Of a DNA stretch of 36,457 nucleotides, positions 14,014 to 28,480 are shown piece by piece. The stretch lies in NCBI GenBank assembly GCA_025201365.1, contig JAIXMF010000117.1, positions 1 to 36,457 of the forward strand, given 5' to 3'. Within the stretch, counting starts at the first letter, position 1. The number at the start of each line of letters is the position of its first letter. Made by a program: the position numbers and the translations under genes. The notes below the pieces were generated by a model. That model saw only the letters and a program-made list of their open reading frames with translations. It ran no database searches and was not told where the DNA came from. The stretch comes from Syncephalis plumigaleata. Taxonomy: Eukaryota > Zoopagomycota > Zoopagomycetes > Zoopagales > Piptocephalidaceae.

Positions 14014-15832
14014 ATGAAGTTCTCTGCCATTATCGCTATTGCCGTCGCCGTCGTCGCTCTCACCAGTTTGGTCGCCGTTGAAGCTAGTCCCGCCTTGGTC
14101 CGTCGTGGTACGTATGACTACTATGATCATATCAATTGATGTACTAACCGTAGTCTATTGTTTCATTGCCTACCGATGATTACCGATAGATCGTAAGTTC
14201 ATGTATATTAAATGGATGTTTTGAGATGTTAATCACATTGTAATGTTTATTCTATCTATTAATTTGTTAGCCGAACCTGGTAAGTCATTCTATTGACCAT
14301 AACAAGCACTACGCTAATCACTCCATACGGTTTATTCTTTCTATTAATATGTTAGCTGCAAATAGTAAGCTATTTTACTGATCGTAACAAGTACTATGCT
14401 AATTGTAGTCTAAATCCTTATCGTATGTGGTTCCATTTGGAAGTTGTAAGTTATCATTCTGGCCGTAATGTATACATGTACTAATTATAATATGGCTCAC
14501 AATTCATACGGCTGTATATATAGGGCGTAGATTATTGATTGATTGTATCGTATGGATGTGCTAACTGCAGCATGGCTCATAATCCAACCGTTTGTGTATA
14601 AAAGCCCGTAAGTCAATAATCTGATTGTAGCGTACAATATATTAATCACAATACGGTGCATGGTCCATGGTCCATATTCTCGTGTATATAATAGATCGTA
14701 AGTCAATAATCTAATTATGGCGTACGATGTATTAACCACATAAAATATGTGATTCATATGACTGCATATATAGGGCGTAGGTTATTGCTTGCTTGTATTG
14801 TATAAATGTGCTAACTACAGCATGGCTCATAATCCATACTCTCGTATATAATAGGTCGTAAGTCAATACTTTAATCGCATCGTATAGTTCATTAACTGCA
14901 GCATGGCTCATAATCCACTTGTTTGTGTATAATAGATCGTAAGTCAATAGTTCAATTTTATCGTATAGTATATTAATCATAATGCGGTGTATGACTCGTA
15001 TTCTCGTGTATAATAGAATGTAGGTTGACACTTGATTGTGATGAATGGGTGTACTAACTACAACATGGCTCGCAATCTATATGGCTGTATATGATAGGGC
15101 GTAAGTCAATGCTCCGATTGTAATGTATACTTTATTAACTACAGTATGATACGTAATCCACTCGCTTGTGTATAATAGTTCGTAAGTCAATGCTCTGATT
15201 GTAGCATATAATTTATTGACTACAGCATGGCTCATAATCCATATTTCTGTATACAGTAGTTTGTAAGTTAATAGTTCAATTTTATCGTATAGTATATTAA
15301 TCATAATGCGGTGTATGACTCGTATTCTCGTGTATAATAGGATGTAGGTTGACACTTGATTGTGATGCATGGGTGTACTAACTACAGCATGGCTCGCAAT
15401 CCACTCGTTTGCGTATTAACAGAGAGTAAGTCAATACTTTAATTGTAGCGTACAATGTACTAACCACATAAAATATATGATCCATATGCATGTATTAACA
15501 GAAAGTAAGTCAATGCTTTGATTGTAATGAATGGTGTACTAATTACAATATGGCATACGATTTTTGCTTACTCCTTTATAGGAGCCTGTAAGTCAATACT
15601 TTGCTTGTAACGTATAATGCGCTAATCATTCTATGGCACACAATCCACATACATTTATGTATAACAGGCCGTAAGTCACCACTTCAATCGTTATTTACGA
15701 TATACTAATCACAATACAATCTACATCAATTGAATGATAGGATCAATAAGCAGTAAGTCATAATCCACATGATAATCATACCGATACTAATCCAATATGA
15801 TTACAGAACAAGACGAGGATATCATCAAGTAG
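14014..15832 (+). CDS. Secreted peptide gene built from a signal-peptide exon plus an array of candidate micro-exons
   Basis: Exon 1 (14014-14107) encodes MKFSAIIAIAVAVVALTS, then LVAVEASPALVRR: a signal peptide with likely cleavage after VEA and a dibasic Kex2-type site at RR. It ends in phase 1 at a GTACGT donor. Downstream, AG-N-GTAAGT-like windows enclose candidate exons at 14190-14192, 14271-14279, 14356-14364, 14524-14526, 14605-14607, 14695-14697, 14774-14776, 14855-14857, 14936-14938, 15017-15019, 15098-15100, 15179-15181, 15260-15262, 15341-15343, 15423-15425, 15502-15504, 15582-15587, 15668-15670 and 15741-15752, all multiples of 3. A terminal exon starts at 15807 after a normal intron; in phase 1 it ends QDEDIIK at 15832. 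Sequential inclusion reads DPEPAANRPHRRHQWLL after the RR and then stops (15262/15341). In another phase the last exon is open to 15981. The exact transcript cannot be settled from sequence. Confidence 0.5.
14193..15752 (+). repeat. 81-bp-period tandem array of intron-plus-micro-exon units
   Basis: About 19 diverged units follow one another. Anchoring on the donor, the steps from 14526 are 81, 90, 79, then 81 seven times, then 82, 79, 83, 83 and 82. Each unit has GTAAGTCAAT (or GTAGGTT), an internal TACTAAC/ATTAAC-like branch motif, often followed by CAGCATGGCTCATAATCC, then GTGTATAATAG, then three variable bases and the next GTAAGT. The 9-bp excess in one unit is a TGGTCCA duplication. One unit (near 14441-14446) encloses only two bases, AAG-TT-GTAAGT, and breaks the rule. 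The first units (to 14364) are less similar and have 9-nt inserts. The donor and acceptor parts are the most constant. Confidence 0.85.
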
Positions 15833-16085
15833 ATATTATAGGTATTCAAGTCAAGAGTGGATTGGTGCAAGACCCTCATTTGGTGTCCATGTCATTCAAG
15901 TCATTATTCCTTGATACAACAACAACAAGTATATCTGCAAGATCATTCAATCATTTATTGAGTAAATATGTCCTATTCTGACCATCACATCCGTAGTTAA
16001 TGTTCATGCATATCAATTGTTTAGTACTGTCATTATATCTAACAAACCATTACATTATTTATACACATCGTCAGATCACTAGTAC
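15833..16085. other. 3' flank or alternative terminal exon of the micro-exon gene
   Basis: A plus-strand frame stays open from the 15807 acceptor to a stop at 15979-15981 (58 codons from TRRGYHQVDIIGIQVKSG). It needs entry in a phase different from that left by exon 1 plus 3n micro-exons. No further gene was seen before the transposon end. Confidence 0.4.
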
Positions 16086-22187: not shown

Positions 22188-25100
22188 TTATAGATTAACT
22201 TGTACCAACTGCTGTTGTTGTTGTCCCTCATCCTTTAGTAGATTAAAGTACTCGTTCAACTTTGAGGATAACGTACGATGCAACTGACTTAGTGTTGATT
22301 CAGATTCACCCAACATAGATAGATAAAGTTCATCCGATCCATTAAGTGGCTTGCCAGATGATAGCGATGACACATGTCCTACTGTGTCCTCTAGTGTCTT
22401 GACGAGTGTGTCGAGTAACGAGTAGGGCAGCCAATGCAATGAAGTAACAAGTGGCTTCGTATTAGATGCCGATATTTCCTAGAAATGATCATTAGTCATT
22501 AGATAGTGACATCATACAAAGACACTGATTGCTTGATTACCTTTTCAATTTGAAGTAATGCCTGTTTAGCCGCATCTTCAATGAGATTATACTTTAAATA
22601 AATACGGATTAAATCCTCTGGATTATGTATCTATATTATACAGGTTAATACCCGCTTGTTATCACGTAATCTACTAGTCAATTACCGTATAGAAATGAGT
22701 TAGCCATGCGGGTAATTTGGCATATCTATTAAGTTTAAGTGTCTCCTCTAGAACTAGTGCACGATACTGATATTGCGTATCATGACTATCGTATCTATTC
22801 AGTAGTTGTTCCAATAGACGCCATGCACGCGCTGATGGTGGTCCCTCCATGGAATCGGTGTATGATGCGTCATCGCTATCCGTGCTAATATCGAATACAC
22901 GATCTTGAACATTATAGGCAGCCGGTCTATTCACAAGTGTTGCACGCACGTCAGTATATAGCAATGTAGCAATGATGACAAGAATAAAGAGTGATCACAC
23001 TTACTTTCCCTCAAGATCTTCTTGCGCCAAACGTACACACTTTCTAACCATACTAACAAATATAGGCGATAGATCAAGGGAGAACACTTTGGATAGTGCG
23101 AATGCATGTCCATATTGTCCTCGCTGATTGAATAGATTGACGGCATCACTTGGCTTGATAACCCACACTGCAATGATACGCATATTAACTACTATGAAGT
23201 AATGGCTAATCATTCTCACGCTTACTTGTTTTAGCCATTTCAGGATAGGAACGTATAAGTTGAAGACGAGCAAGTGCTAGACCGTATTCGCGTTTCATGT
23301 CATCCATATCGATCATAATGGTATTCGTCGTTACACTGTGCTTGTTACCTAATCATGTTGTCGATGAGTATATACTATGCTTGTTTACGGGCAATCTCCT
23401 ATCATATTCAACATACCATGATCATCTTGCACTCGAACACGACGACGTTTACGTGTCTAGTAAAAGCAATCGTCATTATTGTGATAATGCTTGTTATTCA
23501 TTACTTACACTTGTATGGCTCTTGGTTCTATCATCGCCATCATGCATGTCATTCATCATATCATCGTCATTCATGTCGTCATCCATGCCAAGCATGCCAG
23601 CATCATTGATGTCGTCCACCAGTATCCAGGCATGAGTGCCATCAACAAGATGCAAAGCATTGATGGCTGCCAAATAGCTACGTGCTTGATTGGCAATCAC
23701 ATCCACATGGAAGGTGGACGGCATTACCTTGCCTAATCCCTGTGCATTATTGTACATGGCTCGTGCAGCTATATACATGTATTGTATTTAATAACCAGCT
23801 AACTAGTAACTACTAATGTAATTGCGCTTACCTTGTCGGAAATTACCACGATGTACGTGATACGCGTAGAGAACACGATAATAGTTGGGCGTGGCTAATA
23901 CGCCGCAAGTACGTGCTCGGAATTCGAGTGTTGCCTCCACTTCCGATTGCAATCCACCAAAAGCGTAACTGCACAATTTGCCAATATGCTGTCCATCGCA
24001 TAATTTAATCACAAACTGACTAAGGCATGTGTTCTGTCTGTTTACATATCATTGATATTAGCACAACTATATCTATATACATATACGTCGTTATACTGCT
24101 TACTTGACGGGATCTGGATTCTGCATCATTGCCGCAAATGCATCATCATATTGATGCAGTGCCAAATAGCATTTGAATAATTGTGAATACAATTGTGCAG
24201 TCAATGATTGTACCTGTACTAATGGTTAGTTTCTATCATTTCCTAGTAATCTAATTTTACTATGCTATCACTTACCTTATTGTTTGATGATGTTAGATGG
24301 AATTTCAGTGCAAGTTGATAGAAATCAGAAGCATACTCGTAATGCGATTGCTTCTCGAATAGACCGGCTACATAGGTGTAGTAGCCATTAATTGCCGAAT
24401 TAGTAGCGCTGCTGGACATGGCTGCTGCTACCGCTGCTGAATCAACACCGAATAGAGCCGTGACATTGGATGGTTCGACAAGTATCGAATTGAATAAAGC
24501 TAGACTTGAATGCATTTCCGGTTCAGGTGATTCTATATAAAAAACATGATTAGCATTCTATCAATAGAAATGCACGTTATGATGTCATACATACCTAGTT
24601 GTATACCGGCTTTAATGAAATTATCCTTGGCTTTCTCGTATTCATCATGTCGTAAATGGATACTACCACGTAGATGACATACAATAGGTGTGGGTAATAA
24701 TAGTTGTAAACTCTGATAACTGATATGCGTTAAATCCAATGCTAGTAGATGTGCCGCTAGCTTGGCTCCTTCTAGTTCATTTTCATCTTCCAGCATGTTT
24801 ACTTTTGTTTCATTATTCGAACCGGGCAATTGCAATTGAATATGCTCCGCACCCATGGTGATCGTGTCTGCTAGTGATGCACTTTGCACTTGTACCGTGT
24901 AGAACGTATGAATCAATTGATGAATAATACTGTAATACTGATGATGATCTGTTACATGGAGTGCACCACCACTACCTGCACCATTACCATGACCATTATC
25001 GGATACTTGTAGTTTTGTGAAATATCTAATGAAATCATCCTCCTTAAGGAGTGTGCTTGATCTACTTGATTTACTGGTAGTATCCGTGGATTTACGATGG

Positions 25101-27850
25101 AGTAGCGCAGTAGTGGCATTACCGGTAGTGGCGGTGACACTGTTCACTTGCGATGCACTCGATACATCGCAGATACGTTTAAGCATTGTCGTGTAGCGAA
25201 CAGCCTGTACACATTGGGCCACCAAGGTTGGACTCAATCGCGGTAGACTTCTAAGTTCCGAATCCAATAGACTGATCAACACTAGGAGTACAAGTCGAAT
25301 GGCTAGTTGATAGGTGATGCTAATACGTTGTGCCAATGCTACCACTACGGTGGATTCAACTAGACGGGAGGCACGTTGCAACGGTAATATATCCATGGTG
25401 GAGGGTGCGTGTCCACGAGTGACATCAAGTAACTGGTGAATTGCTTCGGACAGATTGTTGCAACCGCGTAGCAAACCGAATAAACGATACTGACCATGAT
25501 GGGATAGTTTATCGCGTACAATGTCGTAAATGTCGTATCCCGCCGTATCTAATGGCTCATTAATCGCGGTAATCAGCATGACGCGTAGTTCCTCCTCCAC
25601 GTAGCGTAGCGTGTCCTCGCCCATATCCTCTTGCAGTGTTATCATGGCCTCGAGTAAGCTTGCCATATCTTCGCGACCATTTTGTCGCGATAATGAAGGG
25701 AAATGCGCGGTGAACACGCTCGAAGGCAAAAAGGATAGCGCGGCCAAATCGTATTGTTCATCGACATGATGCCATAGCAATTCAGGCTCGCTGCAACGTC
25801 GTAAGAATGAAAGTGCACGCTTACGCACAATACACATGATACCCATGGATGAGTCGACGAATAGACTCATTGGTTGTCGTGTTACTTCTCGGAATTGCGA
25901 ACACATTGTTAAGAAGCGGTACCATTCCTTCTTGACCATCTCGGAGAATTCATCCAAAAGCACGGCACCAGTAGGCTCGTAGACTGGCAGGGTTAAACGA
26001 CGTGATATCGCATTGGTGACACGTTCCACCAATAGTGCCTCGTTCGTAAATCGATTCTGACTCGATGGAATCATGGTTCGATCAGTGTTGGCTTGACTTT
26101 CATAGCAATCGAGTGCCTTCTCGATGATGGCATGCGAGAATCGATTCGGGAAGAAGATGTGCTGCAGGTAGAGTTGCGAGACAGCCTCCGGTTGTGCCTC
26201 CACCATTGAGTTGAGCTGCGTCAAATCGAATAGATCAGATGCATCGGTGGCCACCGCAAACCATCGTTCTCCGTACAAGGCGCGATAATCGGACAAGTAG
26301 CTCTTGAACTCGTTCTGTATTGTCGTGGTAACCGTGGTGGATTCCGTCATTTCCTGATCATCCTGCCTTGTTGACGTGTATCGTAATTTGTACGCGGTAC
26401 CCGCCATGGAGGATAGCGTAAGGAACGTGAAACGCATCTCAATCTGTTGTTGTTGTCGTTGCCATAATGTCCATAGACGTACTACGTGTTCAGTCTCGCG
26501 ATGACCAATGGCGGGATTGAGATACTCGCATGCGACATCCAACAGGCCGAATACATCATTGCCACCATTGTTAACGGAGGTTATCCAGGGTGATGGATGC
26601 GTATACACCTTGATCAACTCGTCTAGATGACCCGATTGATCGAGTTGACCGCGTAGAATCGTGAATACTTGCTCACGATCATTAGGCACATACGTCAGTA
26701 GATGAAATGCCGCGCTATTATCACTGATCGTCGATGCACTATGTCGCAATGTCCATATACACTTTCGTGGCTGTTCCGGCAGGAGAGACGGTGCGGTCAT
26801 GGAGGCAACTCGATGATTCTCCATTGGATTCGGATCATGCTGCTGTAATGGCCTTGTCCAAATACATTTACGCTTTGCCAACGACCAAGCACGTAGATAG
26901 TTGTCGCGACAAATGCCAAATATAAACGTGTCATGCTCGAATGTATACGTGGTTAGACTGATGACTTGTTCCGGTGTCGATGCCGCCTCATAGACAAGCA
27001 TACCATCCGTGTCTTCCGATGCATTGTTGGACAATGAGTTGGATCGCTTAAGCGCGTGTGATAGCATACGAGCTGGCACCACTAGCATTTTCGCTAATAA
27101 TGATTCCGGATTAAATGCAGCCTCCATCACTATATATATATCATACAAAATGAGTCAATCCTTTCAATGTATATACTACTAGCATGTTGTATACTTACCT
27201 CCTTGTGTTATAAACCCATTAGCATTGACTGATCGTTGTTGATATTGATGTCTTGGCAGTTGAATGGTGAATAATGATCCATCCGTACACGCTACCACCA
27301 TGGTAGTTGCATCGATACCCGCCATGATCACTGGTGCACACTCGCCTGTAATGGATTGCATACGATAGATGCAAATGTCTGCCGCATCCAGTGATGCTAT
27401 TTGAAATAGCAATGGTGCCGAGAAACTCAAACGTACAATAGTACCGGTAACAAGTAGTACTAGACAGTAGAGTCGACGATTCGCCACATCCTCATACCAG
27501 TAGATGTTAGGCAGGATGGCCGAGGGAAATCGAAAGCGTACCGGTGTCGTGGCTTGTGTGCTATCGCCACCAGAGGGTAGTTCCATCGCATCGCGTTCAT
27601 GTCCAAGTAGCATACGACTAACCTCAAGTACCTTACTATTTTGAATAACCCGCCATTCCACGCATGTATCGCGTTCCATCTCCAGTTTGTAGAGGGAACC
27701 CGCTAAGGGTGGCGGTGTACGCGTCTGATAAAGGAACGGTGTCGCCGGCTCATAGTTGAATACAGTATGTTCTACGATAGCACCTTCCACTGGTCGATAC
27801 GTCGTTGACGGCACGAGCGTCTCCTTAAACCATAGATCTTGTACAGACAT
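22188..27850 (-). CDS. NUP160: Nucleoporin NUP160/Nup120 (Y-complex)
   Basis: A 1655-residue scaffold nucleoporin of the Y (Nup107-160) complex. Exons: 27199-27850, 24595-27129, 24276-24532, 24104-24213, 23832-24037, 23509-23768, 23417-23456, 23226-23348, 23005-23167, 22686-22926, 22541-22630, 22188-22478, all phases closing. The N-terminal beta-propeller (about residues 1-550) contains PEQVISLTTYTFEHDTFIFG and CRDNYLRAWSLAKRKCIW, the conserved NUP160 block. The helical domain has LCDGQHIGKLCSYAFGGLQS, NYYRVLYAYHVHRGNFRQG and ANQARSYLAAINALHLVDG, followed by AWILV, and later YNVQDRVFDISTDSD. These follow animal NUP160 order closely. An Asp/Met-rich insert (DDDMNDDDMMNDMHDGDD) sits where vertebrate NUP160 has a short loop. 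It is longer than human NUP160 (1436). It diverges from the VAMP7 gene, 630 bp away. Confidence 0.93.
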
Positions 27851-28480
27851 GATTCACCAAGCAAAGAAAGAAAGAAAGAAGAAAAAGAAAGAGAAAAAGT
27901 GTAGTGTTTCCGTGTTGTCGTTCTAACTCGGTTATTCGTTATTTATGCAGCGATTATAATCAGTAAAGATCGCCTCATAAATACGTGTTCATAAACCAAG
28001 AAAGACGAGGATAATCCTGTAAAAGAAACAAGAATCGCGTACACGCTACATGCAATATTTTGATATTCTCAATGGTTGTAGAATTACACTCGAGTGCTCA
28101 TTGTTATTTTGTTATGATTCCATTATTAAAAACTAACAAATTAAAACTAGATGATCACAATGATGATGATGATCATCGTCAATGTCACCCTATAATACGA
28201 ATATATCTGTGTGTGTGTGTGTGTGACGGTTCCTTTGACAACAACCACAACTACAATGGCCCCATTCCATCATACATTCATGCATACATTCACTTCTTAC
28301 TCACTCTGACACCGCTACTTACTTTTTCACCTTACACTCTCTCGCTCGCTCTCTTTCTCTTTATTTTGTCATTTTGCTCTACTTTACGTCAAGTATTTCT
28401 ATCTCGTTTCTATCGAGTGTTAGCAACGCTAACTATTAGTCAATTCACTGACAAGCTATTGTAACTACACGTTGTCTACC
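27851..28480. other. Divergent promoter region, NUP160 and VAMP7
   Basis: A 630 bp region between head-to-head genes. It contains a purine-rich AAAGAAAG tract next to NUP160, a (GT)8 microsatellite at about 28209-28225 and a CT-rich stretch at 28320-28400 near VAMP7. A 134-codon open frame at 28060-28464 is low complexity and not believed. Confidence 0.5.

Follow-up and report, generated by a model that had tools for sequence, protein, structure and literature searches.

The micro-exon genes (MEGs) of schistosomes are described as having 10–20 exons of 6–81 bp (3–81 in the abstract), mostly of 15 bp, with introns of up to about 5 kb, and their automatic annotation is reported to be difficult (PMC10526429). 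Aphid bicycle genes, which encode putative effectors, are reported to have about 17 exons on average, with internal exons in phase 2, and the aphid megacycle gene to have more than 100 micro-exons (PMC9168663). Isolated exons of 3 nt are reported in mouse Ncam and Drosophila TnT (PMC8042270). Among fungi, one regulated, functional microexon is described in Xlr2 of Trichoderma virens, in a 2024 abstract that calls functional microexons previously undescribed in filamentous fungi (PMC11121469). In the open-licence literature, searched through titles and the beginnings of abstracts with subscription papers outside its scope, we found nothing on arrays of one-codon exons or on the gene family considered here.

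The locus lies in a window of 36,457 nucleotides (positions 1 to 36,457 of contig JAIXMF010000117.1) from Syncephalis plumigaleata (order Zoopagales), whose genus is called mycoparasitic (PMC10386755). Our comparative analyses identify positions 14014–15832, with high confidence, as a predicted member of a large S. plumigaleata secreted-peptide family built of one-codon exons, in which an exon of 5 or 2 nt sets phase 0 and the reading frame closes at a TAA in the penultimate exon. At the level of predicted gene models, they establish the unit structure, the frame, the stop and the last junction, which reads as in intronless relatives, and a deposited protein maps only as micro-exons. The mature peptide behind a dibasic RR site would be encoded in a tandem array with a period of about 83 bp, each unit consisting of one intron (mode 80 nt) and one codon. 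Like the schistosome MEGs as published, the family has fast-evolving, putatively secreted proteins and many short, mostly frame-neutral exons; unlike them it is fungal, has up to 68 internal exons, 823 of 985 being 3 nt long, and combines tandem introns of about 80 nt with phase 0, and a profile search with the family returned no schistosome protein among its matches. With the bicycle genes it shares many small internal exons of one phase, but its array exons are single codons in phase 0 rather than phase 2, again in a fungus. The Ncam and TnT exons, in the accounts available, illustrate that the spliceosome can splice in a one-codon exon, but these are single exons in long genes and do not spell a whole mature protein as in Syncephalis; Xlr2, as described in its abstract, likewise involves a functional fungal microexon (predicted ones in our case), but a single regulated one. 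The Syncephalis family works like a MEG or a bicycle gene, is a member of neither, and stands at the extreme of the micro-exon kind of secreted gene.

The features of the window gene are given below, with the basis of each in brackets.

14014..14107, plus strand: exon 1, 94 nt, encoding signal peptide, pro-region and dibasic RR, together MKFSAIIAIAVAVVALTSLVAVEASPALVRR, plus 1 nt (family matches)
14108..14189, plus strand: intron 1, 82 nt, donor GTACGT, TACTAAC inside (82-nt span between exon 1 and the first micro-exon)
14190..14192, plus strand: micro-exon ATC, 3 nt, phase 1 (parse)
14271..14279, plus strand: micro-exon CCGAACCTG, 9 nt (parse)
14356..14364, plus strand: micro-exon CTGCAAATA, 9 nt (parse)
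14444..14445, plus strand: frame-setting micro-exon TT, 2 nt (5 nt typical in relatives), phase 1 to 0 (parse)
14524..14526, plus strand: one-codon exon GGC, followed by the weak donor GTAGAT (GTAGGT in L009) (parse)
14605..14607, plus strand: one-codon exon CCC (parse)
14695..14697, plus strand: one-codon exon ATC (parse)
14774..14776, plus strand: one-codon exon GGC (parse)
14855..14857, plus strand: one-codon exon GTC (parse)
14936..14938, plus strand: one-codon exon ATC (parse)
15017..15019, plus strand: one-codon exon AAT (parse)
15098..15343, plus strand: block of four one-codon exons with their introns, GGC (15098), TTC (15179), TTT (15260) and GAT (15341) (parse)
15254..15259, plus strand: tandem acceptors CAG TAG ahead of exon TTT (use of the first AG adds an in-frame TAG)
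15423..15425, plus strand: one-codon exon AGA (parse)
15502..15504, plus strand: one-codon exon AAA (parse)
15582..15587, plus strand: exon GAGCCT (first AG) or CCT (second AG, 15585–15587, the parser's choice) (parse)
15668..15670, plus strand: one-codon exon GCC (parse)
15741..15752, plus strand: penultimate exon GATCAATAAGCA, with final residues D and Q, then stop TAA at 15747–15749 (parse)
15753..15806, plus strand: last intron, 54 nt (parse)
15807..16005 (end nominal), plus strand: terminal exon, conserved 3' untranslated block (family comparison)

The flat-prior parse of the window thus holds 20 internal exons between 14190 and 15752, of which 16 are 3 nt long, two 9, one 12 and one 2, and a terminal exon from 15807. 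A reading made from the letters of this DNA (the sequence-only reading) had placed the array correctly and was also right that the 94-nt exon 1 of the window ends in phase 1. Its count of 15 exons of 3 nt is recovered under a first-AG rule, by which 15582–15587 is the 6-nt exon GAGCCT, whereas the flat-prior parse gives 16. Its central proposal, a secreted-peptide gene of single-codon micro-exons, is backed on comparative grounds by codon usage, stop avoidance, the last junction of intronless relatives and the mapping of a deposited protein. The window copy closes in frame, and its product after phase-0 splicing would be ..RRDPEPAANIGPIGVINGFFDRKPADQ. The codons GGC TTC TTT GAT are missing from the near relative L009, and a 324-bp tandem repeat overlaps the block at 15098–15343. 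The window copy may be weakened by the GTAGAT donor behind GGC at 14524 and by the CAG TAG acceptors, which could give a premature stop; because of these two features, we are surer of the family structure than of the window copy itself.

The S. plumigaleata genome (32.6 Mb, 383 contigs) contains further such genes, as a same-genome search proposed in the sequence-only reading was meant to reveal: the signal-peptide exon of the window has at least 150 matches at E up to 0.001, a lower bound given that 150 of 170 candidates were scored. Two sets of these places were read, the 39 best DNA matches to the window region (L009–L047) and 46 further signal-peptide loci (L048–L093), the latter a non-random choice made mostly for long open frames; about 65 places lie outside both. 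Behind the signal peptide, 32 of the 46 have no array, 12 start one and 2 (L076, L078) are of another kind. The parse set comprises the 37 loci out of 40 with both ends recognised, that is, the window and 36 relatives; L010, L025 and L043 were left out for want of a terminal block or a signal-peptide match. Some loci on small contigs, including L015 (C223) and L017 (C58), are near-identical copies of loci on large contigs, which suggests that the assembly contains haplotypes left uncollapsed or segmental duplications of recent date.

The parser, whose penalty on exon length was flat and gave multiples of three no advantage, assigned 985 internal exons to the 37 loci. Those of 3 nt number 823; the others are 50 of 9 nt, 44 of 6, 29 of 5, 14 of 2, 12 of 12, 6 of 15 and 7 of other lengths. 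A gene has between 9 and 68 internal exons, the maximum in L015, where a Cys-rich part is followed by a Pro/Arg-rich tail; a stricter version of the parse gave no solution for 9 of the 37 loci. The stretches from signal peptide to terminal block contain 943 GTARGY donors, and for 740 of them the nearest upstream AG is exactly 3 nt off, against about 45 in shuffled sequence and 4 donors in the flanks. Genome-wide, the strict pattern GTAAGT-N{60,85}-AG-N(k)-GTAAGT has 1,921, 34, 29 and 109 matches at k = 3, 4, 5 and 6, compared with 106, 217, 64 and 43, respectively, for reversed-pattern controls, some of the k=4 matches being 6-nt exons that start with AG (places on C58 and C223 are common to k=4 and k=6). 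The array structure is far beyond chance. Runs of 3-nt-exon units also lie on contig C1, at 2256065–2256397 (plus strand) and 1412781–1416851 (minus strand); their introns look unlike those of the main family, the places fall outside the 150 signal-peptide matches, and they are possibly other genes with one-codon exons.

How is the frame of such an array set? Exon 1 is 94 nt long in 36 of the 37 loci and 85 nt in L009, ending in phase 1 either way, and small exons of 3, 6 or 9 nt come next (more of them in L020, L026 and L031). Behind these, 33 of the 37 parses have an exon of 5 nt (29 loci) or 2 nt (4 loci) by which phase 1 gives way to phase 0, and therefore each later 3-nt exon is one whole codon; L016, L018, L046 and L047 are without it. 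This exon overturns two statements of the sequence-only reading, that all internal exons are multiples of three and that phase 1, which holds 85 stops, is kept to the terminal exon; a third, that the terminal exon is coding, fails with the end of the reading frame at TAA 15747–15749, which leaves the exon from 15807 untranslated. The total closes in frame in 30 of 37 parses, and in 24 a clean frame ends at TAA GC[AG]; the motif TAAGC[AG] stands ahead of the last donor in 35 loci. The clean frames of L032 and L041 end instead at a TGA at the start of the same, penultimate exon, and their arrays spell a short His/Gly peptide, HHHGHHGGHH. Eleven parses are without a clean product: L012, L018, L019, L027, L040, L044 and L047 show no in-frame closure, and L016, L020, L023 and L046 close in frame but have an internal stop or no stop exon. 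L023 and L027, with 1-nt losses in the 3' block, look broken; the other unclean parses may be parse failures, mutations or dead copies.

Stop codons were counted in 734 array codons of 29 genes (the 37 less L018, L012, L023, L027, L040, L044, L046 and L047). Phase 0 contains 5, against 22.7 expected from base composition, and all 5 fall in off-length parses, three in a 45-nt exon of L016 and two after a 7-nt exon of L019. Phase 1 contains 85 (89 in shuffled order), and the phase-1 reading of the array was rejected on this count; because phase 2 has 9 against 9.8 by shuffling, stops by themselves separate phase 1 and leave phase 2 undistinguished. Codon usage separates all three phases: between 640 array codons (ten genes set aside) and 1,174 codons of 27 intronless loci, read-through ones included, relative synonymous codon usage correlates positively in phase 0 (r = 0.84) and negatively in phases 1 and 2 (r = −0.21 and −0.29), so that the array matches its intronless relatives in phase 0 only. 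Codon usage in the Nup160 gene of the window matches neither set, with r = −0.05 against the array codons and 0.09 against the intronless relatives.

Read in phase 0, the predicted products, for example ..RRALTPKDCKPDETFYDGFGGGHCCKKEPVGDCRYQ from L011 and ..RRAHPNCTGVCCNVGKDGCQGWMRDWGN from L030, appear as coherent mini-proteins behind the RR site. At least three cysteines occur in 6 of 17 non-redundant products, all 6 with CC; shuffling yields a mean of 1.8 CC products and, in 5,000 shuffles, a maximum of 6. In an alignment of 7 array products with the intronless L064, four cysteines (C..CC..C) are invariant; their spacing is present, as a sequence pattern, in part of the family, and the preceding exon is signal-peptide-like as judged from its sequence.

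Most of the 32 intronless loci share the order signal peptide, RR, peptide, stop and 3' block (for L084, L089, L090 and L091 the full layout does not appear), and three of them, L085, L073 and L081, have long Gln/Asn-rich, coiled-coil-like peptides rather than short ones. In seven (L058, L066, L068, L069, L071, L080 and L086), TAAGCA is directly joined to the 3' block, the very text expected from removal of the last intron in array genes. Since TAAGCA adjoins the block in these seven, the intronless loci fix the predicted position of the last junction and the frame in which the stop is read, and mark the terminal exon as untranslated. Other intronless loci have TGA or TAG near the 3' block, and in L050, L051, L053, L074 and L087 a different frame stays open into it. 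A coding terminal exon was considered, as two frames are open over 40–60 codons in many loci and in one of them the third position varies most (82 against 55 and 43 changes), which counts against an untranslated region; that frame has stops in L020, L021, L023, L028, L033, L044 and the window, and we rejected it because the intronless relatives stop before the block in the frame of the peptide. An AAG|CA acceptor for the penultimate exon, leaving 2 nt, was also rejected: in 32 of 37 parses, use of the earlier AG yields an exon of 9, 12 or 15 nt.

Peptide comparison found no parent–copy pair between array and intronless products, the matches being weak (best E 0.003, over a Pro-rich stretch). 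In a tree of signal-peptide and 3' block DNA from 37 array and 31 intronless genes, the array genes form one short-branched group with several intronless genes inside it, and the most divergent genes are intronless. Support is low; on this tree, the short branches of the array group and the intronless state of the most divergent genes suggest an intronless ancestor.

All 92 residues of the deposited protein BDF22DRAFT_685685 can be placed on L037 (C362) without a mismatch, in 42 exons of which 39 are 3 nt long: exon 1, GTC, the 5-nt CACCC, 38 one-codon exons and a last exon that retains the final intron. None of 100 versions with residues 33–72 shuffled maps to the locus, nor does the mature part of another family protein, and the best contiguous genome match behind the RR covers the final 25 residues only. 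The model omits six predicted internal exons, at which its introns are 147–165 nt long; AAC, ACACCT and CC have weak acceptor scores, and TGC, GGA and CCT ordinary splice scores. Models with dozens of 3-nt exons are not what gene callers usually produce, and for this reason we infer that transcript evidence lies behind this one. In BDF22DRAFT_685769, 51 residues behind the RR are without a contiguous genome match, a weak result taken alone. A profile search with the family returned 19 proteins (16 named S. plumigaleata, 2 from JGI metagenomes, 1 unnamed from NCBI), and no candidate homologue emerged from a search with the mature peptide of L022. Four deposited models, P0013, P0014, P0016 and P0019, seem to join the signal peptide or 3' block to other sequence, perhaps as a result of gene callers failing on the arrays. 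The Nup120/160 nucleoporin gene at 24536–27853 (minus strand) of the window is 85% identical over 48% to a JGI metagenome protein, on which basis close relatives may exist in environmental data; to Thamnocephalis sphaerospora it shows 36% identity over 96%.

Introns before 3-nt exons have a mode of 80 nt (261 of 788) and range from 59 to 89 nt, save four at 135–165 nt, with GTAAGT-like donors and a TACTAAY branch site. The long distance from TACTAAC to AG pointed out in the sequence-only reading is family-wide, the branch A lying 43 nt from the intron end in 400 of 756 introns (the mode). Behind the branch A, AG is absent at 10–30 nt and has a frequency of 0.0014 at 30–40 nt and 0.031 at 5–10 nt, compared with 0.0149 on the donor side, in counts that are non-independent, the introns being related by duplication and the acceptors parser-chosen. 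Such an exclusion is the mark left by a scan for the first usable AG, and an AG at 5–10 nt is probably too close for use; an exon start at such an AG close behind the branch site was rejected, as it is not conserved in relatives and AG is absent further on. Array introns thus combine GT-AG ends, a branch site and AG exclusion, as in a spliceosomal micro-exon gene; the sample of ordinary introns in the genome is limited to 4 candidate donors. Over ten close pairs, per-site differences are 0.021 in splice signals, 0.044 in array exons, 0.047 in introns and 0.041 in the signal-peptide exon. Pairs with identical structure differ by 5 codon changes, all non-synonymous and too few for a claim of positive selection.

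Could the array be a purely intronic repeat expansion, with exon 1 joined to the terminal exon and the AG-NNN-GT triplets no exons at all? The units are tandem repeats that could spread by duplication without selection on the triplet, but the direct join reads QDEDIIK and a stop, and the phase-0 peptides would be accidental; with codon usage at r = 0.84 in one phase only, the C..CC..C pattern, the depletion of stops, a stop and junction shared by intronless relatives and the mapping of a deposited protein, unlike its shuffled versions, through 39 exons of 3 nt, we regard this expansion as very improbable. Even less credit is due to the triplets as recursive-splicing ratchet points, at which one long intron would be removed stepwise with the 3 nt incidental. 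AG-NNN-GTAAGT does look like a ratchet point whose step is 3 nt, and splicing probably does proceed serially from 5' to 3', yet true ratchet points, to our knowledge, leave no bases behind, whereas these triplets are used as codons are, avoid stops and spell conserved cysteines, and some exons are 6, 9, 12 or 15 nt long. Slightly better placed, and still very unlikely, is a decaying repeat family whose copies are mostly non-functional remnants left by retro- or segmental duplication: array codons change at about the intron rate (0.044 against 0.047 in the ten close pairs), L023 and L027 carry frame-breaking losses and 11 of 37 parses lack a clean product, but clean frames in 24 of 37 parses, the frame-setting exon in 33, TAAGC[AG] in 35 loci, an exclusion zone free of AG and splice signals that change more slowly than introns all count against decay.

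Combinatorial exon skipping, in which each 3-nt exon is an optional residue and one gene yields many peptides, is a possibility of another order, though on balance a doubtful one. The array exons are frame-neutral, and the six predicted exons left out of BDF22DRAFT_685685, where its introns are double-length (147–165 nt), include three with weak acceptor scores (AAC, ACACCT and CC). The omissions may instead be losses of alignment or annotation, and the splice scores of TGC, GGA and CCT are ordinary. Faithful inclusion is favoured by the retention of the C..CC..C positions among relatives and by the slow change of the splice signals, at less than half the intron rate (0.021 against 0.047).

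For the preferred reading, a secreted-peptide family of one-codon exons, we propose the following model. For steric reasons in the spliceosome, the two splice sites of a 3-nt exon cannot be occupied together, and on this ground the introns would be removed one by one, by intron definition and from 5' to 3', leaving the growing coding exon beside the next donor. The RR site would be cut by a Kex2-like protease, and the peptides would be secreted and act outside the cell on a fungal host, as is plausible in a mycoparasite. Because the units are near-identical at about 83 bp, unequal exchange between introns could add or remove single residues as whole codons, and we read the family as diversifying by gain and loss of codon units of about 80 bp. 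More speculatively, and with less than even confidence, we envisage one-residue exon cassettes: secreted mini-proteins built codon by codon and evolving by unit gain and loss, maybe with a combinatorial readout by skipping residues, on splicing machinery that handles dozens of consecutive 3-nt exons.

What is the relevance of such a family? Its members are micro-exon genes at the limit, with a single amino acid to each exon, in a group of fungi without a counterpart in the literature searched, and they offer a natural test of the spliceosome on exons too small for both splice sites to be bound together, dozens of them consecutive and in frame. The 16 named S. plumigaleata proteins set against at least 150 signal-peptide matches, and the one protein tested that mapped as micro-exons, suggest that a large secreted repertoire escapes standard gene callers or comes out garbled. 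The arrays also suggest an evolutionary route in which insertion or loss of a single residue is a clean recombination between near-identical introns, which would fit an arms race with a host.
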